A stretch of 31,149 nt of DNA from a virus. The notes under the pieces were generated by a model. It was not told where the DNA came from and did not search any database. It was given only the letters and a program-made list of their open reading frames with translations. The stretch lies in IMG/VR virus record IMGVR_UViG_3300032177_000050, positions 1-31,149 of that record; one strand, given 5' to 3'. Positions 3,001 to 30,528 of the stretch are shown here, one piece after another; the first letter of the stretch is position 1; every line of letters starts with the position of its first letter. The position numbers were made by a program, and so were the translations under genes.

Positions 3001-3554
3001 ACTTCGGAAAACACCCTGTCTGTATCAGCCCCATAAGGGGAACTGCCTTGAGGGTAATCTACTCCTTCTCGCATGCCACCCGATCCAACAGCCCATTGAG
3101 CATTAGGGAAGTACATTTTCTTCTTCCTTGTAGACCATTTAGGCTGTCCCCAGCTGGTGACAATATCCTCACCTGCCTGAAGGGATGAGATGATCTTCTG
3201 ATTCTTCGCAAACTCCCGTTCAAGGTCACGTAGTTTTGCCTTAATACCCGTACTTAATTCCTCTACGTATTTCAGCGATTGATCCTTCGCTGTTTTAAAG
3301 CTGGCCGACATCTTATCGGTCGCACCCTGGACGTTCCAACCCTTAAAAATGTCGCCTGCCGGGACACTTTTGAGGAGTTCAAAGAAGGTAGAAACGGATG
3401 CTCCGATGGCCTTAAACTGTGAGGCGATAGCCTTCAGGGAAGGTTGGATCTGTTGATTGAACTGATCGACGGCTTTTTGTATTGTAGAAAAGAAGTCGGG
3501 AGAGACCTTCGAAAAAAATTCTACTCCCAATTTTTCTACTATGATTTCTGACAT
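1..3554 (-). CDS. Tail tape measure protein (3' end outside window)
   Basis: The frame stays open from an ATG at 3554 to the left edge, giving at least 1184 residues without a stop. Tape measure proteins set tail length and help eject DNA. The N-terminal half is long, helical and polar. Around residues 620-790 lies the region typical of phage tape measure proteins (TIGR01760-like), with DVGAITNASAGDM, SFLEAADALKILGQAG and TGLRGILGQLIAP. Hydrophobic stretches at about residue 590 (QMAWLVGGALIFGTIF) and near 965 (FLALSLLAAAVTAVKLA) could be membrane segments used during ejection. The start overlaps the end of the homing endonuclease gene by 16 nt. Its position after the frameshifted chaperones is the canonical one. 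The C-terminus is not in the window. Confidence 0.93.
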   Translation of the reverse strand, partial: MSEIIVEKLGVEFFSKVSPDFFSTIQKAVDQFNQQIQPSLKAIASQFKAIGASVSTFFELLKSVPAGDIFKGWNVQGATDKMSASFKTAKDQSLKYVEELSTGIKAKLRDLEREFAKNQKIISSLQAGEDIVTSWGQPKWSTRKKKMYFPNAQWAVGSGGMREGVDYPQGSSPYGADTDRVFSEVSAGYQSRQLTIYKEMESVLGRMGAFERARLATDELIARANQSEVDAKSKIAEVSKIIDVLRSKGLTVEGKDDKYFSSAKKHLEDIWNTTKDINILNQEAEAVIARICGSEEALKKIILERFEIEGKLVTLATSMANEYERAKASQFQSLNVGGLWTKGDINVESWQRLIGYVEQARGAVNAFQQNIQAVQMKAFIDPNELERINRLTSVLNAEIDSLSNRLSKIGSQTGAKAIAEPFVALEAQITKVETALAAAQASGKGGAVVYTNLDATVRKLANDLKELAASTKLWRVDEIRAGMGVLDAQINKLSGGAELSYKSLKKMGMGMLEVEEIQSLLGTKMKLIREEFALTGVATTAMNTEMNKSSQAMVGLRAYAGEVEKKTGDAARAMQRWSIEGFGNMLKSQMAWLVGGALIFGTIFKIQQAFREATSTLMKFSQAIIDVGAITNASAGDMKVLEKAARDVATTTKMSFLEAADALKILGQAGLTAKQSADALKTVGMMVSATGASAQEAVKILTTSMYVWNISAKDVTRIGNVLAAALNYSKLEVGDLTTSFNYLAATASQVGMGIEETAATIAVLSNAGLRASTIGTGLRGILGQLIAPTKAFRDELHSIGVDFEAIRMPGHNLIEVLGVLGKAGFDLTNTFEGLEKRQAGVFAAMSNMGKDAFQKMTDALTGTNALLVMNERAMQGPMAQLHVFKTSLLDVALSTSDIVVPSFNLLLKVLGELVATFKLLWPVFIGGAVISGIQYLIKQFDLLALGAGTLNTVLTFLGKHPIFLALSLLAAAVTAVKLAYGGLHQSNEDRIKQIDREVLLYIQQVQELEQLKIKVLDLKISDDELRTSVNNLSGEYSGLKEMVNQVGFSHGAVKDKIIADINEMYKAIDSLKFDRLKLLLDDLETLHKKIDKTKDKLREVRSMQPSGEFDLLPVNTRSEELKLIDRLTDLTEKEIKLKQAAIETGRAYKNRTEDELRALAKEKEFSEAYLKVALDTRKQAIQED

Positions 3555-4459
3555 GTCCGTATATCCCTACTGTTAAATAAATTGTTTTGTTGATATGATC
3601 TAATTTTTTCTTCAAGTTCTCTAATCTTTTTCTTGTATGGTTCTGCCTGATTTAAGTGTTCTCCGATTTTCATTGCAACCAAATTTTCGGGACGGTTGTC
3701 ATCCTTGACACCATTTAGATGGTGAACAACGTAACCCTTTGGTATCTTTTTTCCATATGTCTTTTCCCATACCAGGCGATGTTCATGTATATAGTAGGAT
3801 TTCGAGGTATTACGGTAATCTGGGTTTAAAACCTCTACGTATCCATTTTTGGTAATACGTCTACCGCCCTTCCAATTACTACTGTGTTCCGAAAGATGCG
3901 GGTTTCTTAATGGTACACCCAACTTAATCAATCTTCTTCTGACCGCATTGTCTGAAATATCAAACCTGGAAGCTATGGCGACCATAGATGTCCCGGCACG
4001 ATATAATTTCTCAATCTCCCCGTTATCGCTGTCATTAATCTTTTTACGATATCTCATGGAATGAGCCTTGTTCTCGCACTTGGGGCTACAATATTTCTTG
4101 TTTCTTTTGCTCATTTCTATAAATGATTTTCCGCAAATCCCACATTGGATCTCTCTGCTGGTATAAATTTTCTTTCTATTTAAACAAGTGAATCTGCGCC
4201 CACATTCTCTACTGCAATATTTCTGATTAATATGCAGTATGTCTACGAAAAACTCCTTTGTACAAATAGGACACACTTTGGGTAACTGCGTTCTATGAAT
4301 ACTTTCTTGATGTTGTCTATGATTTTTCACCCCCGGATGTTGTTTGAGATACTGTTTGTTTCTACAAGATTTATTGCAATATATTTTTCTATAGTGATTA
4401 GTGGTAAATTCTTTTTTGCATTCTGGGCAGATTCTCCGATTCATTATCACGTCTGCCAT
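3539..4459 (-). CDS. Free-standing HNH homing endonuclease with three zinc ribbons and an HTH
   Basis: 306 residues. Three successive Cys4 ribbons occupy roughly residues 11-32 (CPECKKEF...CNKSC), 63-87 (CPICTKEF...CSREC) and 105-128 (CGICGKSF...CSPKC). A helix-turn-helix follows at about 150-180 (AIASRFDISDNAVRRRL). The HNH nuclease core is near 225-265, with HEHRLVWEKTYG, VVHHLNGVKDDN and RPENLVAM. Such proteins cut an allele lacking the gene and spread by repair. It sits between the tail chaperones and the tape measure gene, and its last 16 nt overlap the tape measure start, so it carries that gene's ribosome site. Start ATG at 4459 has AAGGTG upstream. The nuclease class is clear; the target site is unknown. 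Confidence 0.9.
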   Translation of the reverse strand: MADVIMNRRICPECKKEFTTNHYRKIYCNKSCRNKQYLKQHPGVKNHRQHQESIHRTQLPKVCPICTKEFFVDILHINQKYCSRECGRRFTCLNRKKIYTSREIQCGICGKSFIEMSKRNKKYCSPKCENKAHSMRYRKKINDSDNGEIEKLYRAGTSMVAIASRFDISDNAVRRRLIKLGVPLRNPHLSEHSSNWKGGRRITKNGYVEVLNPDYRNTSKSYYIHEHRLVWEKTYGKKIPKGYVVHHLNGVKDDNRPENLVAMKIGEHLNQAEPYKKKIRELEEKIRSYQQNNLFNSRDIRTCQKS

Positions 4460-4490
4460 TTTATTTAATCACCTTAACGCCTTTCATTAA

Positions 4491-4757
4491 CTACGAGCAA
4501 AGCCCTTGCATAATCAGAGCCGCTGCTTCGGCGTTGTTCTTGTTCAAAAATCTCTTTTTCCCACGAGCCGGAGAATCACGAGATGAATCCTTATTATCGC
4601 GCTCCATATCTTTAAATTTAAGCCAAGAGACATGAGTAAGAAGGCCAATCTGACCCATCGAATAAGTCTCGAAAACCGTTTGGAGATTTGGGATACCATA
4701 CTTCTCCATGAAGGAATCATAGATCGCTAACTCTCTAAGTTCGGTGGGGATGCTGGA
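4491..4757 (-). CDS. Tail assembly chaperone, -1 frameshift extension (GT-like)
   Basis: This 88-codon segment is read in the -1 frame relative to the upstream chaperone and has no good start of its own. An internal ATG at 4709 lacks a ribosome site. The frame is open across the end of the upstream gene and joins it at an A AAA AAT heptamer. Shifting there would yield a fusion of about 253 residues from the 5251 start. In lambda-like phages gpG and the frameshifted gpGT chaperone the tape measure protein during tail assembly, and this pair lies in the expected place just before the tape measure gene. The extension is rich in charged residues (KFKDMERDNKDSSRDS) and ends ALIMQGLCS. The assignment rests on position and frame, not on similarity. 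Confidence 0.75.
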   Translation of the reverse strand, partial: SSIPTELRELAIYDSFMEKYGIPNLQTVFETYSMGQIGLLTHVSWLKFKDMERDNKDSSRDSPARGKKRFLNKNNAEAAALIMQGLCS

Positions 4758-5251
4758 TTTTTTGCCATCAGTGCAGCCATCCTCTGGGCTGCCAGCAAGA
4801 AAAAACTTGATACCAGATCTCCGATCCCCTGCTTGTTAAGTTGGGCCATGACTATCGGAAGAAGAGTGCTTGCATGGGCATCATCGGATTCGGATATGGC
4901 TTCTCTGGTAATATCGGCATCATACTTGGAACAGATAATACAGACTACATCTACCATCACGTCCATACATTGAGCAATCTTGGATGCACCTGCATTAGCC
5001 AATACCTCAGTCCATGGTTTATCTTTAAACTCGCCAATAAGATCCATCACGGGTCCTAAAGCGAGTGCTATTTTCTTTTCGTATGAGATTGGAAGAATGC
5101 GGATAGGAAATTTCTTTCCTAAAAGAGTGAAATCGTCTTTAGAAAGGGTGGGATCGATTACTTCATTAATCTGGTCTTGACTTGGAATCTGTTTCTTTTC
5201 TACCATTTTAACCTCCGTGTTAGGATGAGTCCGGTTAGCCTTCTTAGGCAT
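4727..5251 (-). CDS. Tail assembly chaperone (G-like)
   Basis: 174 residues. Acidic and helical, with a segment shared in style with phage tail chaperones: FPIRILPISYEKKIALALG followed by a helical bundle and a C-terminal LAAQRMAALMAKN. It lies between the tail tube and tape measure genes, the standard slot for gpG-like chaperones, and carries a -1 slip site nine codons before its stop. Two in-frame starts each have a good ribosome site: ATG at 5251 (GGGAGGGATAA) and ATG at 5206 (GGAGGTTAAA), giving 174 or 159 residues. The longer form adds a basic N-terminal tail. The function comes from context and the frameshift rather than from clear sequence similarity. Confidence 0.75.
   Translation of the reverse strand: MPKKANRTHPNTEVKMVEKKQIPSQDQINEVIDPTLSKDDFTLLGKKFPIRILPISYEKKIALALGPVMDLIGEFKDKPWTEVLANAGASKIAQCMDVMVDVVCIICSKYDADITREAISESDDAHASTLLPIVMAQLNKQGIGDLVSSFFLLAAQRMAALMAKNPASPPNLES
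4757..4763 (-). promoter_or_regulatory. Probable -1 ribosomal frameshift site, A AAA AAT
   Basis: In the zero frame the codons read GCA AAA AAT. The heptamer fits X XXY YYZ, so both tRNAs can re-pair one base back on AAA AAA. The -1 frame from here runs 88 codons to 4491, while the zero frame stops 30 nt downstream of the heptamer, at 4727-4729. No strong downstream pseudoknot was found by eye. Confidence 0.7.
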
Positions 5252-8550: not shown

Positions 8551-8994
8551 CTAATAAAGTTCTATTTCTTCAAACATCGGTGGAGTTCTGGGAACTATTT
8601 CGATAAAGGTTAACTCCTCTTTTACATCAGGATCGATCTTGGCCAGGTATGTCATACACATATTCATCGTTTTGGCAGATTCGAGACCCCAATCGATGTT
8701 TTGGATAGAATACTGATAATCTCCACCACCAATAGATTCTGATTGTTTTAGCTTTCCCTTGAGGTAATTACATACCTTCGAGGCAACATGGTAAACAGTA
8801 GCCCTTTTAAATTCCGTTGCGAATTCTATCTTCAAGGCTTCCCAGTCGGGTATCAATTCCTTAATCGCATCTTCAGATTCTGGACCATAGAGATCCCCGT
8901 CAAGAAGTGCGGTGAATACATCCTTATCCGACACCCCGAAGCATATATCCCTTACATCCTGTTGCCAAGAACCCGTTAAAAAACTTAGGGCCAT
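8551..8994 (-). CDS. Head-tail adaptor-like protein
   Basis: 147 residues. The N-terminal half is helical (DVFTALLDGDLYG, EFKRATVYHVASKVCNYLK), which fits phage adaptor proteins of the HK97 gp6 type that bind beneath the portal. It lies two genes after the capsid, in the usual slot. The C-terminus is acidic. The ATG overlaps a possible upstream mini-ORF as TAATG and has GGTGAGG upstream. No single diagnostic motif is visible, so the call depends on position and helix content. Confidence 0.55.
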   Translation of the reverse strand: MALSFLTGSWQQDVRDICFGVSDKDVFTALLDGDLYGPESEDAIKELIPDWEALKIEFATEFKRATVYHVASKVCNYLKGKLKQSESIGGGDYQYSIQNIDWGLESAKTMNMCMTYLAKIDPDVKEELTFIEIVPRTPPMFEEIELY

Positions 8995-9069: not shown

Positions 9070-10044
9070 TTACGATGTATATGGTCCTTGCTCTTTTTCG
9101 TCGTAACCTATTGTCAGGTAGCCAGCAGTCATTACGGATGAATTTAAAATCTTAATCACTGCCTGGTTGCCAGGTGTTATTGTAAGACCCGGCATTGTGC
9201 TAACCTTTTCAACTGTGGTCGCACCTGCGGCCTCAGACCACTTCAAATTGGCTCCATCATACACCCGAAAGAAAGATGTACCACCATTGAAAGTAGAGGA
9301 ACCGAGAATTTTGGTAATCTTTAAACTCTTATCAAGAACCACGGCAGGAACCGTAATCTTCAATTGAAGATTTGTATCACCCGCTAACCAAAGAGCAGTC
9401 TTAATAGAGGTTGCCACCACCGCAGCCAAGTTGGAACTTAAATCTGTTCCGTCAAACTGAGTACCCAATGCACAGGTATAATCGGCCAACCCATCAAGGA
9501 ATGCGACCAGTTCGGCCAAGGTGTCATAGGCAAGATCTCTCAAAAACACCTTTCCACCTGGCCCCACATTAGTATCAGGCGTTGCATTGGGAGCTTCGAT
9601 AAAAAGGTATCGATCCATATGGGTGGTGTAAGCACCAGACTTACAATCCGCCGCAGCAACGATCAACATATTCTTGGATAATTCAGTTCCAACCATATCG
9701 GCATGTTTGGTGCATGTCCAATCGGCATACGCATCAATAACAGCTACCAATTCGGTAATAGTATCATTAGCCGCAGCCGTCAGATCGAGAGTGTAAACAG
9801 GTGTCAAGGCTGGCGCACATAGAATAATACTGTTTTCCGTTACCTCGATAGTGCCAGAGGCTTCCGCCCCCACGTAAGTAACCACAATCCCGTGTTTCCC
9901 GTCAAGAACGCTTGCCCGTGCTGTTGCCTGTGCTCCAACATATGCCAATTGAATAACTTGGGTCTTATCCCATTCCTGAATCTGGGCCTTGCTTTCCTTC
10001 AATAAATCCCTGTATTGCTCCAGGGTTAATTTTTTTGGGTTCAT
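9070..10044 (-). CDS. Head-associated structural protein with internal duplication
   Basis: 324 residues. It follows the capsid gene and is rich in Ala, Thr and Val with few charges, like capsid fibres or decoration proteins. After a helical N-terminus (residues 5-27) there are two related units. NDTITELVAVIDAYADWT at 93-110 matches YDTLAELVAFLDGLADYT at 173-190, and the similarity extends 16 residues further. YVGAQATARASV at 35 echoes YVGAEASGTIEV at 57. The C-terminus is beta-rich (FRVYDGANLKW, LTITPGNQAVIKIL). ATG at 10044 has GGAG nine bases upstream. I do not recognise a named family. Confidence 0.75.
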   Translation of the reverse strand: MNPKKLTLEQYRDLLKESKAQIQEWDKTQVIQLAYVGAQATARASVLDGKHGIVVTYVGAEASGTIEVTENSIILCAPALTPVYTLDLTAAANDTITELVAVIDAYADWTCTKHADMVGTELSKNMLIVAAADCKSGAYTTHMDRYLFIEAPNATPDTNVGPGGKVFLRDLAYDTLAELVAFLDGLADYTCALGTQFDGTDLSSNLAAVVATSIKTALWLAGDTNLQLKITVPAVVLDKSLKITKILGSSTFNGGTSFFRVYDGANLKWSEAAGATTVEKVSTMPGLTITPGNQAVIKILNSSVMTAGYLTIGYDEKEQGPYTS

Positions 10045-11416: not shown

Positions 11417-11433
11417 AAAATTTCCGGTTCCGA

Positions 11434-11817
11434 TTACAGTTCGAATGTCACTTTATGATTCGCCGCATCCATGTTGACTACCCTGTGGGCATTAGCACCG
11501 GCTACCGCATCAAGTTGTTTGACAAGATTGGCAGTAACACCGCCTACGAAGGAGTCAAAGTTCAGAGCGGGATCATCGTGAGCTGGATCAAAATCCATGG
11601 TCACAAATCCATCGATCTGGACGCCCGCGAGACCATCGAATGCGTCAATTACCCTCACGACCCCAATGAAGGGATCATTCTCTGCACATAAAGCAACGGT
11701 ATCATTGGCAGAAACCTTCACCAATTTGTCTTCATCCGTACCCTTTACCAAGGCACTTTTGAAAGAAACCAACCCCGTAAACCCAATACCTTCAAAACTA
11801 ACTCCTCTTGCAGCCAT
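11434..11817 (-). CDS. Capsid decoration protein
   Basis: 127 residues between the scaffold and capsid genes. Beta-rich with small residues: FTGLVSFKSALVKGTDEDKL, DTVALCAENDPFIGVVRVI, VQIDGFVTMDFD, HKVTFEL. This pattern (an exposed value that 'tracks' V-K-V, then F-G-V, then V-x-G-x-V) is typical of small capsid-stabilising proteins of the lambda gpD or DUF2190 style. Strong site AAGGAGGTTTTCGT precedes ATG. The exact family is not certain. Confidence 0.7.
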   Translation of the reverse strand: MAARGVSFEGIGFTGLVSFKSALVKGTDEDKLVKVSANDTVALCAENDPFIGVVRVIDAFDGLAGVQIDGFVTMDFDPAHDDPALNFDSFVGGVTANLVKQLDAVAGANAHRVVNMDAANHKVTFEL

Positions 11818-11850
11818 ACGAAAACCTCCTTATTTTTGACTTTGATATTC

Positions 11851-13215
11851 CTAACTGGTTTTGAATAACTCAGACTTCTGGTTAACCACCCGACTCTTGT
11901 CAATAGCGTTAGGACTGCCAGTTTCTATCCTAACTATTTCTTGAACTTTCGTTTTGCGTTCAGGTGGAATGATTTGTGCTAACTGTTTCTGTTGCAGACC
12001 GATCTTCTCCTTTAACTCATCGATGGAGAGTACCCCAATCTCCTTGTCGAAAAGCTCATCACTGTGATTCTCACCATTGATGGCAACCGATAGATGTTTA
12101 CATTTGCCCCTTAAATCTGCAACGTAGGCATCCTTTATGGCCTTCAGTTCCTTGTTCTCTGCTTCCAAAACGGAAACCCTTTTCTCTGCCTTCCCCAATT
12201 TTCCTTGGAGTTCAATCTTGTCGATCTCGGAAAGCCCAAGGTTCTTGCGGAGCAACTCATCATTGGCCCGTAAATCCTCCAGTGTGGCCTCTAATGTGTC
12301 CTTCAGGACAATCAGTTCATCCTTTGCTTTTTGTAGTGTTGCCATATCTGCGGCGAGGGCTTCGACTGTTCCACTAAGATCACGGGTGCTTTCTTCTTCC
12401 GACTCCACACTTCCAACCCTTTCGATACTGCCATCGAAGTCATAATTGAAGCGGAGAATATCGTTTTGGGAAAAATCCTTGATGTTATCAGACATCAAGA
12501 CAGAACCCTTCTCGTCTATTACCTTTCCGTCCTTGACCTGTGCGTTCTCTGGAACCGTAAATTCAGACTGGATACGGGCTCCCGGCATTGCCCCCGCATA
12601 GACACCGGAAAGCTCGACAAGATTTCTTTCCTTGACGAATCCTTGATGAACCGTATAGGTACAACGCTTCACCACAGGTGATTCTCCTTCCGCAGCCATA
12701 TTGTAGAACCGACCAGGTATATGAATGCAGGTCATGGTGCGGATATCCTGATTACAAAGATTGCAGATAAAAGAACCAGCTTGGAATCCCACGCTGACAG
12801 CTTCGGTATGACCAGCTTCGACTGCCCGGATGTAATCATCGGTATTCAAACCAGAGACATTCAGATTCTTCAACATGTAGACACTCGGTTTAAATGCCAC
12901 CGGAGGATTCTCACCGTCACCCATTGAGGACACAACAGATTGAAACAGAGTTCCAGATGGAATTTTCGTCTTATCATGGCCGAAGAGATATCCCACTATT
13001 TCTGTTTCTGAATTTTCATGTCTCCTCTGTATGTCGGCATGAAAACCCTCGATCATATCTTTACCGAGATACGACCAGTGCTGTGTGAGCTTGTCTGTCT
13101 CGGCAGCCTTCACATCGAACACATAAATCTCTTCCGCCGTCAGTTCCTTCTTCGCAAAATATTTATTGATAATTTCGAGTTCTTCGATAGTTGGTATACG
13201 AACAACTTTATCCAT
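11851..13215 (-). CDS. Prohead protease fused to scaffold
   Basis: 454 residues between portal and capsid genes. Residues 70-225 contain a protease-like core with EIVGYLFGHDKT, AGHTEAVSVGFQAG and ELSGVYAGAMPGARI. A cysteine-rich insert (CNLCNQD, CIHIPG) resembles phage maturation proteases that carry a zinc-like knuckle. Residues 285-395 are predicted coiled coil (KAKDELIVLKDTLEATLEDL and following), the usual scaffold part. The protease would clear the scaffold and trim the shell. The His in GHTEAVSVGF is a catalytic candidate, by inference. The start overlaps the preceding 49-residue gene by 8 nt. Confidence 0.75.
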   Translation of the reverse strand: MDKVVRIPTIEELEIINKYFAKKELTAEEIYVFDVKAAETDKLTQHWSYLGKDMIEGFHADIQRRHENSETEIVGYLFGHDKTKIPSGTLFQSVVSSMGDGENPPVAFKPSVYMLKNLNVSGLNTDDYIRAVEAGHTEAVSVGFQAGSFICNLCNQDIRTMTCIHIPGRFYNMAAEGESPVVKRCTYTVHQGFVKERNLVELSGVYAGAMPGARIQSEFTVPENAQVKDGKVIDEKGSVLMSDNIKDFSQNDILRFNYDFDGSIERVGSVESEEESTRDLSGTVEALAADMATLQKAKDELIVLKDTLEATLEDLRANDELLRKNLGLSEIDKIELQGKLGKAEKRVSVLEAENKELKAIKDAYVADLRGKCKHLSVAINGENHSDELFDKEIGVLSIDELKEKIGLQQKQLAQIIPPERKTKVQEIVRIETGSPNAIDKSRVVNQKSELFKTS

Positions 13216-13357
13216 TGCAAAACCCCCTTAATAGTTCCTCTGTTTCCAACTCCTCTTGTGCTTTAAGAAATTCTTTCTTCTTCTTTAACTCCAAATCTCC
13301 GGCTTCATCTTCTGGTGCGATATCGTGACAACACATAGGCCAACTTTCCCCCTTCAT
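13208..13357 (-). CDS. 49-residue protein between portal and protease
   Basis: Starts MKGESWPMCCHDIAPED and continues as a charged helix (LELKKKKEFLKAQEELETEE). The ATG overlaps the portal stop as ATGA and has a perfect GGAGG seven bases before it. The stop lies inside the first codons of the protease gene. The coupling on both sides makes it credible despite its size. I do not recognise a family; the acidic-basic helix could be a scaffold-like helper. Confidence 0.7.
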   Translation of the reverse strand: MKGESWPMCCHDIAPEDEAGDLELKKKKEFLKAQEELETEELLRGFCNG

Positions 13358-14838
13358 GGATTACCTCCAGACCTACGATCCCGATTGGTCGCAGCACGTC
13401 TTTGTTCTTTACCGCCCTCTTGAGTCACGCTCCTTTGTGGATCATTTCTTGGGGATGGTGTAAAACCATCTACCCTTACCGCATCAATAGGTGGAGCACC
13501 TTTTTGACCGAGCATCCTTCGGGCGAGAGCATTTCTTTCATCCATGGAGATCGAACCCATCTGCTCTTCCTCCCAAATAAGACCCGAATATACGGCATAA
13601 TATTGAGCAGATTCATAAACAGGTCTCAAACTCGGTTCAAGCCATACCCAATCTGCATATGCCTGTATGCCACCTTCAACTTGCAGTGCCAGGGTAAAAA
13701 CACGGTCAAGAAGTCGTTTGACGATTTTCTGAAATCCCTCGATAAGTTTTACAAAAATGAGTGCTTCAATGGAAGTATAGCCTTCCGTACCTCCTCCAAA
13801 TCTCTTGCCTAAAATTGTAGAGTAGGTTTTCATTGCCGAAGCGATATCAGAAAGAAGAACATCGACGATAGCCTGAACATCGACTCCTCTACCAGAGTTT
13901 CTTCCCTCCAACGTAGAGATTGTTACGTTATCGAGATGAACAGGATTATCATCAGCCTCAAGGGACTGCATCGAAGTCTTGGCTTCCGATATTGCCGTAT
14001 TGATGGTCTTGATGATCTCCTGTGGATTACTGATTCCACCGGCCTTGCAACCGTTGATAATAGCCTCCTGGTTAATCTGGATATCAATGCGATCAAATCC
14101 GATATTGTGGAGTGCCCTCGCAAAATCCTGAAGAAGTCTAAATTTACTCATCACAGCCTGAATAGCCGAGATGATTTGATTCGTCCCGTATGGATCATTG
14201 GCTATGGGATCCACGGGAATGTAGATAAAATTACGGTAGTCAAGGGAGATATCTTGACCGAATCCGGTCTGGTACGGCACATACCGTTGGTTGTCTGACT
14301 TAAAAATAACGGTGTACGGATCAACCGAATGAATCGCCACGAGCCTATAATCACTGTTAAATTCAACCTCACCGCACGCAGCCCCATCAATCAAGACATG
14401 AGTTGCAAACTCTAAATAGGTTTTTGAAAGCGACGTGTCTGAAGCAAAACCAGAACTAACCGGATGTTCGATTCTGGCTATGAGATTGTCAATAAAATCC
14501 TGTCCTTGCGAATGGATGGAACCGTTTGCCTTCCTCGCCAACACATAATATCCGCTATCGAAGACCCTGAGATAATTAGAGAAGGCATGGGACACCGTAG
14601 GCTCTGCGTAGAGCAAAAACCGGATGAGATCGGTAGAACTTAATTTAATTAGGTTTTCGAGATTATACTTGTGAAGTTCGCTGAATTGTCGGGGAATCGT
14701 GCTAAAGATATTCTGAGCATACGAACCTATCGGGTCGGTTACGGCTTTCGATCCAACACCTATCCCGCCTGGAGAAACAAAGACGTTTACCCTCGGTCCA
14801 AAAGGAAGGAAGTTTTTAATACGTTGAAGGAAGGACAA
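13354..14838 (-). CDS. Portal protein
   Basis: 494 residues, starting with TTG at 14838 four to five bases after GGGAG. Portals form the dodecameric DNA channel at one capsid vertex. The centre reads RNFIYIPVDPIANDPYGTNQ then IISAIQAVMSKFRLLQDFAR, the wing/stem pattern of tailed-phage portals, preceded by LVAIHSVDPYTVIFKSDN and followed by LRPVYESAQYYAVYSGLIWEE. The C-terminus is basic and disordered (RSVTQEGGKEQRRAATNRDR). It is placed before the protease as expected. An A/T-rich 123-nt gap upstream may hold a promoter but none is convincing. Confidence 0.88.
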   Translation of the reverse strand: MSFLQRIKNFLPFGPRVNVFVSPGGIGVGSKAVTDPIGSYAQNIFSTIPRQFSELHKYNLENLIKLSSTDLIRFLLYAEPTVSHAFSNYLRVFDSGYYVLARKANGSIHSQGQDFIDNLIARIEHPVSSGFASDTSLSKTYLEFATHVLIDGAACGEVEFNSDYRLVAIHSVDPYTVIFKSDNQRYVPYQTGFGQDISLDYRNFIYIPVDPIANDPYGTNQIISAIQAVMSKFRLLQDFARALHNIGFDRIDIQINQEAIINGCKAGGISNPQEIIKTINTAISEAKTSMQSLEADDNPVHLDNVTISTLEGRNSGRGVDVQAIVDVLLSDIASAMKTYSTILGKRFGGGTEGYTSIEALIFVKLIEGFQKIVKRLLDRVFTLALQVEGGIQAYADWVWLEPSLRPVYESAQYYAVYSGLIWEEEQMGSISMDERNALARRMLGQKGAPPIDAVRVDGFTPSPRNDPQRSVTQEGGKEQRRAATNRDRRSGGNP

Positions 14839-15812: not shown

Positions 15813-15870
15813 AATCCCTCTGCCGTAGTTTTGCATTATCAGGGCAAAATGGTTTGTTAATCAATGGTTA
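15787..15870 (-). repeat. Duplicated promoter/start module, copy A
   Basis: Covers the promoter, ribosome site and first codons of the 80-residue gene. It matches 16031-16116 with only a few substitutions and a 2-base length difference, while the flanking sequence and the proteins' bodies are unrelated. It looks like a recombination module that supplies expression signals to different small genes. Confidence 0.8.
15835..15864 (-). promoter_or_regulatory. Sigma-70-like promoter TTGATT-N18-GATAAT
   Basis: In the minus sense TTGATT (15864-15859) and GATAAT (15840-15835) are separated by 18 nt. The predicted start would be about 16 nt ahead of the ATG at 15812. The identical arrangement occurs at 16081-16110. 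Confidence 0.6.
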
Positions 15871-16056
15871 GAATGCACTTTCCCCATTACATTCATGGCA
15901 AATTAACATCCCATCTCCATGTATACAATATCCCAATCCGTGGCACATATCATCAGGGCAAACTACTATTTCTCCTGTGCCTCCGCACCGATTACAAGTA
16001 TAGGGGTAATGTTCATCCTCACCCAAGTCAATGATTCTTTCTGTTGACTCTTTCAT
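15868..16056 (-). CDS. DnaJ-type zinc finger mini-protein
   Basis: 62 residues from ATG 16056 (GGAGGGATT upstream). It begins MKESTERIIDLGEDEHY and carries four Cys pairs: CNRCGGTGE, CPDDMCHGLGYC and CHECNGES. This repeats the CxxCxGxG style of DnaJ zinc fingers, common in small phage proteins. Its first codons are a near copy of those of the 80-residue gene downstream. The biological role is unknown; metal binding is very likely. Confidence 0.75.
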   Translation of the reverse strand: MKESTERIIDLGEDEHYPYTCNRCGGTGEIVVCPDDMCHGLGYCIHGDGMLICHECNGESAF

Positions 16057-16116
16057 AATCCCTCCGCTACTTAGTTTTGCATTATCAGGGCAAAATGGCT
16101 TGTTAATCAATGGTTA
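16031..16116 (-). repeat. Duplicated promoter/start module, copy B
   Basis: Second copy of the segment at 15787-15870, carrying the promoter, ribosome site and first codons of the 62-residue zinc-finger gene. Differences are scattered single bases plus two extra bases near the ribosome site. The spacing between copies is about 245 bp. Confidence 0.8.
16081..16110 (-). promoter_or_regulatory. Sigma-70-like promoter TTGATT-N18-GATAAT (second copy)
   Basis: TTGATT (16110-16105) and GATAAT (16086-16081) in the minus sense, 18 nt apart, upstream of the ATG at 16056. Its presence in both repeat copies suggests these two genes are transcribed independently of the surrounding operon. Confidence 0.6.
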
Positions 16117-16123
16117 TGTGGAA

Positions 16124-16399
16124 TTAATGACATTGACACAATCCACCATTGTAATAATAGGGGCCGTTCATTCCTGGCTGATCTACTGGATTATAGTGTT
16201 CTCCTGGAATCCCATACCAACCTTCCCCGTTGCCACAACAATCACAAACGGTTACATCATGTTCTGTATTATTATCGATCCACTTCAACACAGCATTACA
16301 GAAGTCAGGAGCTTTTTGAATCTCCTCCATATTTAATTCTGGAATTTGATGCAGGTTTAAAAAACCTGTGCTTTCACAACGGGTACAAGATAAAGACAT
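16124..16399 (-). CDS. Cys-rich phage protein (DnaJ-like CxxC pairs)
   Basis: 91 residues from ATG 16399, with GGAGG five bases upstream. It opens MSLSCTRCESTGFLNLHQIP and ends with CDCCGNGEGWYGIPGEHYN and GLCQCH. This type of Cys-rich protein, with VLKWIDNNTEHDV in the middle, recurs in many phages without known function. Its start lies 11 nt after an attC-like site, so it could be the gene next to the end of the cassette array. No further attC-like site follows its stop. Confidence 0.75.
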   Translation of the reverse strand: MSLSCTRCESTGFLNLHQIPELNMEEIQKAPDFCNAVLKWIDNNTEHDVTVCDCCGNGEGWYGIPGEHYNPVDQPGMNGPYYYNGGLCQCH

Positions 16400-16409
16400 A
16401 AGAACCTCC

Positions 16410-16465
16410 ACATAACCAATCACTCCAGCGGACGTGCGACACGCCGCTGAGTTCAGTCGTTATCT
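16410..16465. repeat. attC-like recombination site (a)
   Basis: 56 bp in the plus sense: ACATAAC at the left end and GTTATCT at the right end. Between them a central imperfect palindrome reads CAGCGG-A-CGTG, CGA, CACG-CCGCTG (16426-16449), with one bulged A. The left half (TAACCAATCACTCCAGCGG) and right half resemble integron attC arms. The stop TAA of the 76-residue gene overlaps the right box. Confidence 0.7.
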
Positions 16466-16690
16466 GAAATTATAAACCTTCATTGGACATCGCTCTGGTG
16501 TCAACGGTTCCCATAAATGCCATTGAGCGCCTTCGTCGGACATATAATCTACGCTTAAAAGAATCGAGGCATTGAGGGCTTTACAATGAATATGGGCCTT
16601 CTCCTTCGTTTTACTATTGCCAGCGAAAACGTATTGTTTGTGTTTACAAGTGCCGCCGTATTCCCCGATATTTTCACAATCACGAATCAT
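16460..16690 (-). CDS. Cassette gene, 76-residue protein of unknown function
   Basis: Starts MIRDCENIGEYGGTCKHKQ at ATG 16690 and ends TPERCPMKVYNFR. Several cysteines and histidines (HIHCKALNAS) could bind metal, but no family is recognised. The gene lies wholly between attC-like sites b and a: its ATG is 9 nt from site b and its stop is inside the end box of site a. This is the compact layout of an integron gene cassette. The frame stays open upstream to a GTG at 16738 inside site b; the ATG is preferred although its ribosome site is weak. Confidence 0.7.
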   Translation of the reverse strand: MIRDCENIGEYGGTCKHKQYVFAGNSKTKEKAHIHCKALNASILLSVDYMSDEGAQWHLWEPLTPERCPMKVYNFR

Positions 16691-16698
16691 AAAACCCC

Positions 16699-16756
16699 AG
16701 ATAACCAGCGGGTGCAGTGGATGGCCAAAAGCCACCACTGACCCTTGTCGTTATAC
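16699..16756. repeat. attC-like recombination site (b)
   Basis: 58 bp with AGATAAC at the left and GTTATAC at the right. The centre is CAGTGG-A-TGGC, CAAAA, GCCA-CCACTG. Its arms differ in sequence from sites a, c and e (CAGTGG instead of CAGCGG) but keep the pairing and the bulged A, so base changes are compensated. A further 7-bp hairpin (CGCTTAA/TTAAGCG, 16757-16775) abuts the right end. Confidence 0.65.
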
Positions 16757-16830
16757 CGCTTAACGCCATTAAGCGAAACCATTTATAAAACCTTGGAAAC
16801 GGGTCGGGTGGGGAAAACATAATTTATACT

Positions 16831-17583
16831 CTATTCAAACATAACGGTTTGATCAGGATTGAAAGGTTTTTTGGTATCATGTAACCACCATTCAAACATT
16901 TCTGATCCGTTCTTCCATCTTTTAAAGGCGGGCCTTCCCCCTCTATTCTCGAACAGTTTAATAAAGGCTCGTCTAAAAGCTTCTTTCATCCGAGGCCATC
17001 TATCCCCTTCTCTTACTTGGTGTGAGGACATGGGACACATAACGCAACCAATCCGCTTAAATCCTTCATCATACAAAGAACAATAAGAAATTTTACTTTC
17101 TTTGATGAAATCCCAAACGTCATTATCTGACCAATCTAAAATGGGATTAACATAGGTTCGGGTTGAATTTCGGTAGCATTGTTCCACAAACTTGCGGCCT
17201 GCCCGTTTGGTTGATTCTGCCGCTCTGATACCAGTCAAAACCCTTCTACCAACTCCACCATTTTCCTTAAAAACTTGGCAACACCATCGATTTTGTCTGG
17301 TTGGAAATCCCCGTATTGGTAAAACGGAAAGAAATGGCCTTTCTGGTCTTTCCCACTTTGTATCGGAGTGATGTTTCAGTAAAAACCGGATCAATTCAGG
17401 GGGATCAATGGTTGTAACATTGTAATGAGCGTCATATTTTACGCCAGACATAATCAGTAATTCCCTAACAACGGATGAATCTTTACCTCCACTGTCTGCA
17501 AACCAGTAACCTTCCGGGGGGCAAAATATCCTTATTCTTTCTAAAGAATCTTCTACTTTACAATGTCCAAATAGGTCTTTCAT
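16831..17583 (-). CDS. PAPS reductase-family (PP-loop) protein, cassette-borne
   Basis: 250 residues. The N-type PP-loop is FADSGGKDSSVV at about 28-39. Later conserved blocks are RWCCQVFKENGG, GIRAAESTKRAG, NPILDWSDNDVWDFI and FKRIGCVMCPMSS. Family members reduce phosphoadenosine phosphosulfate or activate sulfur; phage homologues are common but mostly untested. The paired cysteines (WCC and CVMC) could hold an iron-sulfur cluster as in DndC-like proteins. ATG 17583 has AAAGGAC upstream. Flanked by attC-like sites b and c, so probably carried as a cassette, with 74 nt between its stop and site b. Confidence 0.85.
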   Translation of the reverse strand: MKDLFGHCKVEDSLERIRIFCPPEGYWFADSGGKDSSVVRELLIMSGVKYDAHYNVTTIDPPELIRFLLKHHSDTKWERPERPFLSVLPIRGFPTRQNRWCCQVFKENGGVGRRVLTGIRAAESTKRAGRKFVEQCYRNSTRTYVNPILDWSDNDVWDFIKESKISYCSLYDEGFKRIGCVMCPMSSHQVREGDRWPRMKEAFRRAFIKLFENRGGRPAFKRWKNGSEMFEWWLHDTKKPFNPDQTVMFE

Positions 17584-17633
17584 TTGTCCTTTTAGGTTCC
17601 CTTCCGGCCCGTTAAGGTTGCTTTATGGCTACG

Positions 17634-17689
17634 GTATAACCCCCCACTCCAGCGGACGCTTAATGCGCCGCTGGGTTCAGTCGTTATGA
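17634..17689. repeat. attC-like recombination site (c)
   Basis: 56 bp from GTATAAC to GTTATGA. The central palindrome CAGCGG-A-CGC, TTAAT, GCG-CCGCTG is identical to that of site e 1.1 kb away, although the spacer bases beside the end boxes differ. The methyltransferase stop codon TAA lies in the right box. Confidence 0.75.
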
Positions 17690-18445
17690 CGCAAAATCCA
17701 ATACGCCTTGCGCCAACCTCTTCACTGCTATTTCGCAATACTTTTCTGATATTTCAATGCCAACTGCTCTTCTTCCTTCTTCTCTCGCAGCAACAAGGCT
17801 TGTTCCAGTGCCACAGAACGGATCAAGAATTATAACATCCTTTTGGCTCCATCCTTCAATCGCTCTTCTGGCCAGGCTTTTTGGAAATGTTGCACCGTGC
17901 CCTTTTAGGTTTTCTCCGCGCTTCATTCTCCAAATGTCTGTCATTTCTCCACGTTTAAAAAAGGCGTTCTTAAATGCTCGTCCTGCTGACGCTTCTTTTT
18001 CAAATACTAAAATAAATTCAGCCGCTTTATTTATTACCTTTTCGTGCATTGCAGGTTGTCCATGCCCTTTGTCCCAAACAATTACGTCTTTTATCTCATT
18101 AGCAAACTTACCGATGATTTTAAAAATTGCCTCTTTGCTTCCGGTTACAATCTGTATATTCCAAAAAACAAGACCGGAAATTCTAATCATTTCATGAAGA
18201 GTGCTTAGGTGAAATTTAAAGTAGTCATCAATAGACAAATCATCTCCAAAGTGGTCATATTTTTTACTAAAATGTTCGCTTTTTTCTCTGGTTGTGTATT
18301 CTCCATTCCTTATTCTAGTTCGCATATTATATGGTGGTGAAGTAACGGTCAGACCGCATAAATCATCTGGTAATTGCGGCATTATTTCCATACAATCACC
18401 GTGATAAATCGTTATTCCATTTTCTTCGTAGTAAGGTTTAATCAT
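17684..18445 (-). CDS. DNA methyltransferase (beta class, TSPPY), cassette-borne
   Basis: 253 residues. Motif IV is TSPPYNMR near residues 34-41 and motif I is LDPFCGTGTSLVAAREEG near 212-229. The order IV then I marks a beta-class amino-methyltransferase (N6-adenine or N4-cytosine). DIWRM and the C-terminal RAVGIEISEKYCEIA are also typical. It probably protects phage DNA from host restriction, though no cognate nuclease is visible. Target sequence cannot be read from the protein. The gene lies between attC-like sites c and d: the ATG is 25 nt from site d and the stop is in the end box of site c. Confidence 0.9.
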   Translation of the reverse strand: MIKPYYEENGITIYHGDCMEIMPQLPDDLCGLTVTSPPYNMRTRIRNGEYTTREKSEHFSKKYDHFGDDLSIDDYFKFHLSTLHEMIRISGLVFWNIQIVTGSKEAIFKIIGKFANEIKDVIVWDKGHGQPAMHEKVINKAAEFILVFEKEASAGRAFKNAFFKRGEMTDIWRMKRGENLKGHGATFPKSLARRAIEGWSQKDVIILDPFCGTGTSLVAAREEGRRAVGIEISEKYCEIAVKRLAQGVLDFAS

Positions 18446-18469
18446 ATTTACTTTTTCCGTTATAAAAAG

Positions 18470-18524
18470 TCATAACCAATCAATCCAGCCGATCGCTACG
18501 CTCCGGCTGATTTCTGCGTTATGT
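18470..18524. repeat. attC-like recombination site (d)
   Basis: 55 bp from TCATAAC to GTTATGT. The arms CAGCCG and CGGCTG pair around a 12-nt centre (ATCGCTACGCTC) that can form a smaller stem. The spacer AATCAATC next to the left box matches the AATCACT of sites a and e. The methyltransferase gene starts 25 nt to its left and the 53-residue gene ends at its right edge. Confidence 0.7.
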
Positions 18525-18686
18525 TTATTTAATAGATTTCAGGTCAATCCTGATGATTGTGCCTGCCCAGTACATTTGGGCTTCACAGTTACACAAAGAT
18601 GCTTCTGCCTTATTGATGGTACGACTTGAAATAATAGGCCAAACTGTTTCGATCCATGCAGCTAAATCAATGGGTAGTTCAAACAT
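18525..18686 (-). CDS. Cassette gene, 53-residue protein
   Basis: Begins MFELPIDLAAWIETVWPIIS and ends WAGTIIRIDLKSIK. The ATG at 18686 has an excellent AAGGAGGT site 4 bases away. The stop abuts attC-like site d and the start is 27 nt from site e, so it is a complete, compact cassette. The protein is amphipathic with a CNC pair in the middle. I do not recognise it; a toxin-antitoxin component is one possibility for such small cassette genes but nothing visible proves it. Confidence 0.75.
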   Translation of the reverse strand: MFELPIDLAAWIETVWPIISSRTINKAEASLCNCEAQMYWAGTIIRIDLKSIK

Positions 18687-18713
18687 AGATACCTCCTTAA
18701 TGAATAATTTTCA

Positions 18714-18768
18714 ACATAACCAATCACTCCAGCGGACGCTTAATGCGCCGCTGACCTTTGCGTTATAT
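18714..18768. repeat. attC-like recombination site (e)
   Basis: 55 bp from ACATAAC to GTTATAT with the centre CAGCGG-A-CGC, TTAAT, GCG-CCGCTG. It is the first site of the array in the transcription direction. Upstream of it a second box-like GGCGTTATTTG (around 18788) coincides with the stop of the 91-residue gene. Confidence 0.75.
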
Positions 18769-18790
18769 TCTCGCCGCCTCACCCTTGGCG

Positions 18791-19066
18791 TTATTTGACA
18801 TGAAAAATATAATGACCCCCTCGCCTCGATTCTTGCCAACATAGTATCCAAAACATCCAATTCCTTTCCAATGCCCCCATAATGTCTTCGTTACCGCTCC
18901 ATCCTCCGGTTGAAATATTATATATCTTGTCCTTCTGGACCCAGTAACCGCAGTCGGCATATTCCCAGATGCCATGAATAAAATCCATCAGGCCAGAGCA
19001 GTCTTTTGCGGACCATTTCTCAATTTTTTTAAGTTCTTCTTTTGTAGGATCTCTATTCATAGACAT
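18791..19066 (-). CDS. 91-residue conserved-type phage protein
   Basis: Aromatic-rich, with WSAKDCSGLMDFIHGIWEYA, GYWVQKDKIYNISTGGWSGN and CWQESRRGGHYIFHV. The mixture of Trp/Gly motifs resembles a small phage protein found widely and annotated as hypothetical. It overlaps the end of the peptidase gene by 10 nt; an ATG two codons in is an alternative start. Its stop TAA forms part of a TAACGCC sequence 22 nt ahead of attC-like site e, so it may be the first gene outside the array or a cassette with a degraded site. Confidence 0.7.
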   Translation of the reverse strand: MSMNRDPTKEELKKIEKWSAKDCSGLMDFIHGIWEYADCGYWVQKDKIYNISTGGWSGNEDIMGALERNWMFWILCWQESRRGGHYIFHVK

Positions 19067-28108: not shown

Positions 28109-28354
28109 CTATGTCTCTCCCCGGGGACCACCGGAAGTATAAATTTCTTTACCTCCGACTCCTTGAGGTTTAGGATTCACAGTATAACAGACCGGGTCCT
28201 GGATCAATGCTATCCTAATCAGATCAAAAAGATACCACTTCCACCAAACCCTCATCTGACCATTATTGTCTGGCGCATCAACGGATACTCTTTTGCTTAT
28301 CAGGGCAAACCGTCTGTCTTTTATCCAAAAGAATAATCGTTTAGTTCTTGACAT
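28109..28354 (-). CDS. 81-residue protein of unknown function
   Basis: MSRTKRLFFWIKDRRFALIS followed by GQMRVWWKWYLFDLIRIAL and a Gly-rich end (GGKEIYTSGGPRGET). The aromatic central part is not long enough for a membrane helix with certainty. GGAAAGGATAGAAG precedes the ATG. The start overlaps the HD gene's end. Confidence 0.6.
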   Translation of the reverse strand: MSRTKRLFFWIKDRRFALISKRVSVDAPDNNGQMRVWWKWYLFDLIRIALIQDPVCYTVNPKPQGVGGKEIYTSGGPRGET

Positions 28355-29660
28355 CTTCTATCCTTTCCCCGAATAATTCGTTAAACCGTTTCAAAAAGGC
28401 TTTCTCCGCCCGCCTATATCCCAGTGGTGTTATTGTGATATTAAGGGGTTTCAAATCTACACCGTAGTTGAGGGTACGGTCAGTAATGAAATTTTCACGT
28501 TCGGTAATAAGGGCTAAAAAATCGGCACGTTTAACATGATCGTAAATCACATCTACCATCGGCCATTCAAGACCGAATTTCTTCGATATTACCTGCATAT
28601 ACTTATCTTCCAGTTTCTTATACGGTATACCCAAAAAGACTTTAAGGGGGGCAGGAATGTCCAGCAGGTATGCTTCGGCTGCATCGTGTAACAATCCCTC
28701 TTTAGCCCACATGGGATTAACAATCTTCGACACCATAACACAATGTTCTGCCACACTGTTATGAGACCCGAACCCTTCAGTCAGATATGTATGTGTAGAC
28801 GTTTCTATCGCAACCACAGACCCTACGCCAGCATCCCTTGCGTCTATCACCGGAAGAAGCGCGCCCTGCCTCGACACATCCGTCCCGACCATTTTATTTT
28901 GCATTCGACCGATAAGCCGATAGGGGCGAATGGAACCGAGAAGAGCTAATTGTTTTCCAAACCCTCCGCGCACAGTGAAGCGTTTGCATCTGTAACTTCC
29001 CTGATAAGAACATTGAACATCTACATAACGCGATTTAAATGCCCGAACCAGCAAGTCAAAAAGCACCCCTTCGTTTTGAGAAATCCCCAGAGATCGTCCT
29101 CGACTATTTTTACTCGATATGCACCCTTCCCCATCAAACATCCCTGCAAGCCATCCAGCTTCCCAGGTTCCGTCAGTTGCCCACACCGGAAGAAGTTTCG
29201 GCAAATACGTTGTTTGCCCTTTTGAAAATCGTTCAAAAATTTTCCAAGCGACTTCCCAACGTTGATTTCCAGACGCCTTAAAAGAACAAAGCAATGGATG
29301 TTCTCTTGAACAACGGACACTTGTGCCATCCCCAAATGTTAATTCAATAAGACGACGCTTAATCAATCCGTGTACAGAAGCTATCGAAGGTCTCCACTTC
29401 CGCAAACGTCTATGACCCCCGTTCGCCTCGTCGAACCCCCACAGTATGTCTCCAGACGCGATTGACCCCGCAGGAACCCAACGGTAATCATAAGTAAGAA
29501 TTTTCGTTTCAGGGGTCACACAGTAGAATGGTTCAGTCCTTCCGCCAAACCTACACTGTCTCGCCAGATGGTGCGCAATATCACGAATATCAATATCATC
29601 CACCTGCGGATGAAGGAGTTTATAAACCTTGCCAGTATAGGTATGGTCTAAGATTATCAT
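28341..29660 (-). CDS. HD-domain phosphohydrolase (YfbR-like 5'-nucleotidase type) interrupted by an intein
   Basis: 439 residues from ATG 29660 (an in-frame ATG at 29678 is also possible); 184 after splicing. Extein N: MIILDHTYTGKVYKLL, then DIRDIAHHLARQCRFGG ending EPFY. Extein C: SVAEHCVMVSKIV, LLHDAAEAYLLDIPAP with HD at 325-326, and RADFLALITE with a conserved Asp. Metal ligands therefore lie on both sides of the intein (HH near 30-31, H306, H325-D326). Phage enzymes of this type may dephosphorylate dNMPs to alter pools. The intein sits between Tyr46 and Ser302, next to the catalytic centre. Confidence 0.88.
   Translation of the reverse strand: MIILDHTYTGKVYKLLHPQVDDIDIRDIAHHLARQCRFGGRTEPFYCVTPETKILTYDYRWVPAGSIASGDILWGFDEANGGHRRLRKWRPSIASVHGLIKRRLIELTFGDGTSVRCSREHPLLCSFKASGNQRWEVAWKIFERFSKGQTTYLPKLLPVWATDGTWEAGWLAGMFDGEGCISSKNSRGRSLGISQNEGVLFDLLVRAFKSRYVDVQCSYQGSYRCKRFTVRGGFGKQLALLGSIRPYRLIGRMQNKMVGTDVSRQGALLPVIDARDAGVGSVVAIETSTHTYLTEGFGSHNSVAEHCVMVSKIVNPMWAKEGLLHDAAEAYLLDIPAPLKVFLGIPYKKLEDKYMQVISKKFGLEWPMVDVIYDHVKRADFLALITERENFITDRTLNYGVDLKPLNITITPLGYRRAEKAFLKRFNELFGERIEDVKN
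28758..29522 (-). mobile_element. Intein with LAGLIDADG homing endonuclease in the HD hydrolase
   Basis: 255 residues from Cys (29520-29522) to Asn (28758-28760). Block A is CVTPETKILTYDYRWVPAGS. Block B is VRCSREHPLLC (SxxH in place of the usual TxxH). The endonuclease motif WLAGMFDGEG is followed later by a second weaker one in LALLGSIRP. The C-terminal block is VVAIETSTHTYLTEGFGSHN followed by Ser+1 of the extein. All residues needed for standard splicing (Cys1, His-Asn, Ser+1) are present, so the element looks active. Confidence 0.9.
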
Positions 29661-29661
29661 T

Positions 29662-30528
29662 TCACCGCAATCCCGCATTACACTCTAAATGTTTTCTAAA
29701 CAACACCCCGGTCTTTTTACCAATGGACTTCCTTGTTTCCTTCGAATCCACGATTTCCCCACTGCCTTCCCTTACCACGTCCGCTATCATTTCCTTGATA
29801 ATATCACCCATCATCTCTATCCCGGGTTCTAACTCTGGGGAAAACCGTTGTAGCACATGGGCAAGGCGCATTTCAGTCACCCACTCATCGGCTATCGCTT
29901 CGGCATCCGACAATACTTTAAGTTTAGCAGGGTCAAGCTCCCTCGAGGTTTTTGTTTCCTTAAATTCTTCACGCTTATGTTTGGCAATAATGCGTTCTCC
30001 ATTGTTCTTTGTGAGTTCGATCAATGGTCTTAAAACAATTCCTTCCCGTATATGGGTATCCCCCATCCCGTTTTTTTGAGCCTGAATTGAAACTGCATCA
30101 CGGTGGGCGTTTAATGTTTTGATATCGGTTGGAACTTGGGCGTAATGGACAAAATCAAATCCTAATCCTCTGGCGACTTGCTCCGCATTGGGGACATTTA
30201 ACCATATATCTCCAATCTTGACTTCGAAGGCTATAAACTTTAGTTCCTTACCGTAGACCTTACTCATGCCTTGGCATTTACCACCATATGCCTCCCCATA
30301 AACAGTTACTACCGGATACCCAAGAACTTCAAACTTCGAAGGTAGTCCCCATGCATCAAAGAGTAGAACAAAGTTGGCATGGTCTACTCCACCGGCGAAG
30401 AAGTGAACTTGACCGTCTTTCCAAAAAACTTTTGCGGATGTGCCATGAATTTTCTCCATGGCGTAACATTCCTTAAACAAAAGAATGTCATGATTTTTAT
30501 ACAAATTGTCAATATTGAGATAACTCAT
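29662..30528 (-). CDS. RNA ligase (Rnl2-like nucleotidyltransferase)
   Basis: 288 residues. The adenylated lysine is K26 in MEKIHGTSAKVFW (motif I, KxHG). Motif III-like VVTVYGEAYGG, motif IIIa-like KFIAFEVK, motif IV IREGIVLRPL and motif V RIIAKHKREEF follow in the right order. Phage ligases of this family seal nicked RNA, often repairing host tRNA cleaved by anti-phage nucleases. No polynucleotide kinase is visible nearby. ATG overlaps the preceding stop as ATGA with GGTGGG upstream. Confidence 0.88.
   Translation of the reverse strand: MSYLNIDNLYKNHDILLFKECYAMEKIHGTSAKVFWKDGQVHFFAGGVDHANFVLLFDAWGLPSKFEVLGYPVVTVYGEAYGGKCQGMSKVYGKELKFIAFEVKIGDIWLNVPNAEQVARGLGFDFVHYAQVPTDIKTLNAHRDAVSIQAQKNGMGDTHIREGIVLRPLIELTKNNGERIIAKHKREEFKETKTSRELDPAKLKVLSDAEAIADEWVTEMRLAHVLQRFSPELEPGIEMMGDIIKEMIADVVREGSGEIVDSKETRKSIGKKTGVLFRKHLECNAGLR

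Follow-up and report, generated by a model that had tools for sequence, protein, structure and literature searches.

Parts of integrons are known in phages as rare finds. CALINs have been described in virulent phages (Qi et al. 2023, PMC9892861), where attC sites and cassettes occur in lytic genomes and IntI1 recombined the attC sites in a laboratory assay. These phages resemble the one examined here in that they lack intI and carry methyltransferase cargo, but the arrays of TJE1 and PH101 are described as oriented in bacterial style, unlike the present array, and neither cassette turnover within a lineage nor sharing of cassettes across phages is mentioned in the sections consulted, unlike what is found here. 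The same paper records phage attI in a cryptic Shewanella prophage that has intI and in class 1 integrons of P1 (PMC9892861). A second point of comparison is the sedentary chromosomal integron found in the class of Smithella (G062:C154 and G190), which has the attI sequence, the attC type and the G/TT junctions of the locus described below, but differs from it in possessing intI and in having canonically oriented genes in those examples where the gene is clear. In Vibrio cholerae, the orientation of the array relative to replication alters folding of the attC bottom strand and excision, and attC bottom strands located on the lagging-strand template raise excision strongly (Belt and braces, PMC11023631). 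There the whole chromosomal array was inverted experimentally, whereas in the phage array it is the gene that is inverted within each cassette. Set against the open-access literature, a pool of inverted phage cassettes, a phage attI and turnover at the population level look new.

The window, meaning the whole stretch of DNA that was analysed, is the 31,149-bp IMG/VR viral record IMGVR_UViG_3300032177_000050, which is classed as linear. It encodes a tape measure protein, a major head protein, a portal and a large terminase, all on the minus strand, and these structural and packaging genes identify it as a fragment of a tailed phage. Its protein relatives in isolated phages are distant (less than 60% identity). 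No close relative of the terminase was found in genomes of the Smithella class, which therefore provide no prophage link to the host. All contigs compared in this work are metagenome assemblies, and the viral records are partly fragments. Elsewhere in the window, a phosphohydrolase (dNMP phosphatase) gene at 28341-29678 is interrupted between about residues 55 and 290 by an insert with HNH-endonuclease similarity and intein-like ends.

Genomes of 84,980 bacterial and archaeal species were searched with an exact pattern derived from three sites of the window, which matched 54 loci with the usual attC frame GCCTAAC...GTTAGGC. The loci come from Nitrospinota, Planctomycetota, Desulfobacterota, Nitrospirota and other groups, and many of the genomes concerned carry intI. 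Covariance model R1 was built only from bacterial attC sites among these loci (n = 27); it does not recognise the attC of phage TJE1. The original prediction had named five integron-like sites starting at 16410, 16699, 17634, 18470 and 18714 and had proposed an attC covariance search as a check. Searching all 31,149 bp on both strands with R1 (E ≤ 10) gave exactly five matches, all on the plus strand and all at these positions, with E-values of 1e-7 to 2e-16 and nothing elsewhere. The strongest are site e (18714-18768; 58.9 bits, E 1.9e-16), site a (16410-16465; 58.3 bits, E 2.9e-16) and site c (17634-17689; 51.9 bits, E 3.8e-14), followed by site d (18470-18524; 37.6 bits, E 1.8e-9) and site b, whose arms are divergent (16699-16756; 31.8 bits, E 1.4e-7). 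Since sites b and d do not fit the seeding pattern, they are independent tests of R1. The window has no Rfam match at gathering thresholds, and no sequence similar to site a was found in isolated phages or plasmids.

DNA folding of the antisense strands, which correspond to the attC bottom strands, gives attC-type hairpins (z = -3.1 to -4.4; -3.3 for site a and -4.35 for site b) with an R-stem, an unpaired spacer, an L-stem and an extrahelical base. Taken together, R1 and the DNA folds find in the window sites the R''/R' and L''/L' boxes, the extrahelical base and the unpaired spacer of attC. The arms of site b had been seen to depart from the others while still pairing, and comparison with a homologue in another phage (G013) bears this out, both arms having changed together (CAGTGG/CCACTG in the window vs CAGAGG/CCTCTG in the homologue). 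Site d has about two differences from an attC in the genome G190:C71, from the class that includes Smithella, a similarity that favours a host bearing such an integron. Next to site e, positions 18763-18790 on the plus strand are probably the decayed right half of a further attC, resembling a site near 9288-9310 of the reversed contig L137. The gene at 18791-19066 has its TTA stop directly after this half-site, at what would be the old G/TT junction, and is probably an older cassette, now fixed beside the array.

Six units make up the array (15868 to 18762), and an attI-type site lies at the end with the lower coordinates. The sites of the predicted array (16410-18768) stand, but its extent does not, the attI-type site having been missed; that each pair of sites brackets one gene holds. 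Unit 1 (15868-16113, 246 bp) has an inverted 62-aa gene on the minus strand (15868-16056) and ends not in an attC but in a second attI copy (16081-16113); a 99.6% identical unit occurs in the unrelated phage G013 in another context. Cassette 2 (16114-16459; minus-strand gene 16124-16399, attC a) is also present in G009 between other neighbours. Cassette 3 (16460-16750; minus-strand gene 16460-16690, attC b), in which the first three bases, TTA, form the TAA stop codon, is 98.5% identical in G013, and part of it stands beside another cassette in G045. Cassette 4 (16751-17683, attC c) carries a PAPS-reductase-family gene (16831-17583, minus strand; PF01507, E 4e-24). Cassette 5 (17684-18518, attC d) carries a DNA N6/N4 methyltransferase gene (17684-18445, minus strand; PF01555, E 4e-34), whose stop is again the first three bases of the cassette; both kinds of cargo had been named in the original prediction. 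Cassette 6 (18519-18762; attC e) holds a 53-aa gene (18525-18686, minus strand), and its right recombination point, between 18762 and 18763, coincides with the right limit of homology with G004 and G007 at 18762.

The boundaries are those of canonical cassettes, falling between G and TT and with R'' complementary to the 5' end of the same unit. R'' pairs 10 nt of its own 5' end and 5 of the neighbouring unit in cassette 2, 9 vs 5 in cassette 4 and 8 vs 6 in cassette 5, and the R'' of cassette 6, AACATAAC, read by eye, pairs 8 nt with its own 5' end, GTTATGTT. Nearly every unit in the lineage of the window and in G013 follows this rule, with 8-14 nt paired to the cassette's own 5' end vs 4-6 to the neighbouring R'. 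In a wider, automatically parsed set, 21 of 28 R'' sequences pair better with their own end and 6 are ties, several of the remaining cases being parsing failures.

At the other end of the array, the attI-type site occupies 15835-15867 on the plus strand (ATTATCAGGGCAAAATGGTTTGTTAATCAATGG followed by TTA), with its recombination point between 15867 and 15868. Position 15867 is the left limit of homology with G007, G009 and G045, beyond which the cassettes differ. Reading this boundary as a cut at R'' was considered and rejected in favour of an attI-type site on the plus strand. When a 25-base core was scanned with up to 3 mismatches through 155 genomes of the class of Smithella sp. UBA2180, four matches were obtained, compared with none for a reversed-pattern control, and at least three of the four adjoin an IntI start. 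One lies about 110 bp from the start of an IntI scoring 446 bits, where the first cassette of the bacterial array begins at the same G/TT as in the phage and has its gene in canonical orientation; two others adjoin N-terminal fragments of IntI. The site in the window matches the attI beside IntI in G062 and G190, and by its sequence 15835-15867 is an attI of the integron kind. The motif also occurs in the phage arrays L137 and L139/L143 and, as noted above, at the end of the 246-bp unit common to the window and G013. The exact attI scan of viral contigs gave many unrelated chance matches, and only those with attC nearby were kept. The left recombination points of two further phage lineages described below resemble the window attI weakly or not at all, lineage 2 having only the last bases in common with it, and a scan with a second motif (CGCATAATCAATGGTTA) gave lineage 2 and two unrelated matches only. 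Within arrays, the motif is found at 2221-2300 of L143 and 8690-8747 of the reversed L137; in L143 it is fused as a hybrid to the left half of an attC, and R'' still pairs with the 5' end of its own cassette. Copies of attI seem to move with cassettes. The bacterial integron with the phage-type attI in G062:C154 (L191) has as its first cassette a 478-aa gene, possibly encoding an abortive-infection (AIPR-like) protein.

Judged from sequence, the window holds an integron platform, with attI and attC cassettes, that lacks intI. The array departs from canonical cassettes in its gene orientation, since the gene does not lie along attC and attC is not downstream of the stop. R1 matches the plus strand and every cassette gene is on the minus strand, so that the original prediction was right about the spacing between genes and sites but not about orientation: the top strand of attC being the plus strand, it is starts, not stops, that adjoin a gene's own attC. 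The opposite assignment, with attC polarity along the genes on the minus strand, was rejected on three grounds. R1 matches only the plus strand; in bacterial loci having both intI and attC (L086 and L089), the R1 orientation leads away from intI, as in known integrons; and the methyltransferase cassettes of G013 and G045 have the start-side attC in common while the other side differs. The joint movement of this attC and the methyltransferase gene is independent confirmation of the polarity.

When polarity was scored by the longest ORF between neighbouring attC sites, this ORF ran opposite to attC in 31 of 34 viral segments vs 4 of 36 bacterial ones (Fisher p 6e-12; the bacterial comparison set is small). 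An enlarged viral set has 38 of 40 cassettes opposite to attC, and in bacterial arrays of the same attC type the gene follows attC polarity in 32 of 36. According to the ORF lists, cassette genes are co-oriented with neighbouring phage genes in nearly all viral contigs examined; the single-site contig G010 has mixed gene orientation. As attI and attC face against phage transcription, the inverted genes would be those that can be read from phage promoters. With inversion, the bottom strand of attC would also be the non-template one and may be single-stranded as transcription proceeds, and a Pc promoter in front of attI, if present, would read the antisense strand of the inverted genes. A 66-kb viral contig (L108, IMGVR_UViG_3300020171_000022) has two attC arrays in opposite orientations (2708-4840 and 11422-13547), each running against the local direction of its cassette genes.

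Comparison of related records shows that cassettes are naturally gained, lost and exchanged in phage populations. Lineage 1 consists of the window, G004 with G045, G007 and G009, which are 99.3-99.9% identical outside the array (99.9% for G004 over its overlap with the window). Each record has its own cassette set between 15868 and 18762, and the differences are confined to this interval; the window and G007 each cover both flanks in a single contig and have different contents. Fixed palindromes in related phages had been given as an outcome that would count against cassettes; instead, different cassettes lie between the same recombination points. In lineage 2 (G001 and G013), the records are 98.5-99.8% identical over about 10 kb and their cassettes differ. 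In lineage 3, G204 (an apparently circular contig of 57.1 kb) and G205 differ by one complete 253-bp cassette with base-precise G/TT ends, which only one of the two possesses, and the flanking 200 bp contain a single mismatch; at the insertion point there is no attC on the left side, only a TTAT overlap. Three elements recur in both lineage 1 and lineage 2, whose backbones are unrelated: a methyltransferase cassette (95%), cassette 3 (98.5%) and the 246-bp unit (99.6%). One attC in G004 is without the AAC of R''. Another, in G007, is a hybrid: its right half corresponds to the fixed flank, suggesting some homologous exchange inside attC as well.

No IntI was found in the window or in any related viral record, in keeping with the original prediction, so that the five attC sites constitute a CALIN (at least two attC sites with no intI nearby) and not a complete integron. 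The 57-kb G204, which takes part in cassette gain or loss, has no tyrosine recombinase. On these grounds, the simplest account is that recombination is carried out by an IntI that the host supplies in trans, this host most likely being a member of the class containing Smithella. Very probably, then, the locus is a tailed-phage integron platform without an integrase whose cassettes are moved by host IntI. This explanation builds on attC and attI identity, exact cassette boundaries, cassette gain, loss and exchange, and gene inversion, each shown by comparison of sequences. The platform would consist of one attI-type site, duplicated here, followed by attC-bearing cassettes. On infection of a host with a chromosomal integron, the host IntI would act in trans, recombining folded bottom strands of attC both among themselves and with the attI-type site of the phage, and cassettes would be excised, inserted and exchanged between co-infecting phages. 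Their genes, being inverted relative to attC, would be read with the phage operon, the TTA at the recombination point often serving as the stop codon. Integron parts would then serve natural phage populations, which do not have an integrase of their own, as a functioning means of cassette exchange.

Alternatively, the array could be a plain CALIN, that is, bacterial cassettes captured once by off-target IntI activity and now passive. CALINs of virulent phages, whose attC sites recombine with IntI1 in the laboratory (PMC9892861), are a precedent, and the same attC type is present in bacterial integrons. This reading is nonetheless unlikely, as the inversion of 38 of 40 viral cassettes is not seen in bacterial ones, turnover occurs in three lineages, unrelated phages have cassettes in common, and an attI-type site is present and retained. 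Somewhat more doubtful is the view that the hairpins are mere conserved linkers or terminators and that exchange takes place by homologous recombination at short repeats, as in phage mosaicism. Stretches of 20-50 bp are indeed common to the sites and the hybrid attC of G007 looks like a crossover within a repeat, but the whole cassette that distinguishes G204 from G205 has only the TTAT overlap and no left attC, junctions fall at G/TT, R'' pairs with the far 5' end of the unit to which it belongs, and homologues of the attI adjoin intI.

A third possibility, which appears very improbable, is that a phage-encoded tyrosine recombinase moves the cassettes. The candidate is a 284-aa Xer-like protein of G004, the close relative of the window, encoded outside the part that the window covers. 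Its score is 47 bits, where the cut-off of the IntI model is 265, and it is closest to XerA and phage integrases; besides this Xer/phage-integrase-like protein no tyrosine recombinase was found in the records of lineages 1 and 2 or in other array-bearing viral contigs, G204 included. It is scarcely credible that bacterial integron reads were fused to phage contigs at repeats during assembly: every record does come from a metagenome assembly and attC-like sequences are repetitive, but both flanks lie on a single contig in the window and again in G007, with different contents in each, separate IMG assemblies give agreeing flanks, gene polarity is unlike that of bacterial arrays, and the pattern recurs in three unrelated phages.

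Beyond movement of the cassettes by host IntI, it is somewhat favoured that a phage-specific pool of reversed-polarity cassettes, with attC 5' of the gene and a stop codon located at the recombination point, is in circulation among phages that are unrelated, have their own attI-type sites and parasitise host IntI, forming a shared stock of DNA-modification and other small genes. If so, reversed polarity could favour folding of the attC bottom strand and cassette exchange during infection. Consistent inversion of the gene would define a class of phage cassettes separate from the bacterial pool, and such cassettes would allow the control of recombination by attC polarity, transcription and replication to be tested directly.

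Defence genes have been reported in bacterial integrons. A Pfam scan of 36 cassette proteins from the phages gave at least seven DNA methyltransferase matches (four N6_N4_Mtase and three MT-A70), one TET-associated glycosyltransferase, one PAPS reductase and one or two HNH proteins. The remaining proteins are mostly small and without a Pfam match, some having zinc-finger-like cysteines. It is inferred that this cargo helps the phage, through DNA methylation that would act against restriction, and the methyltransferases together with the base-modification glycosyltransferase point to a mobile counter-defence stock that mirrors the defence genes of bacterial integrons. A separate observation in the relative G004 is a 1180-aa protein (L021, 4965-8507) in which methyltransferase and SNF2-type helicase motifs can be recognised by eye and which is possibly DarB-like.
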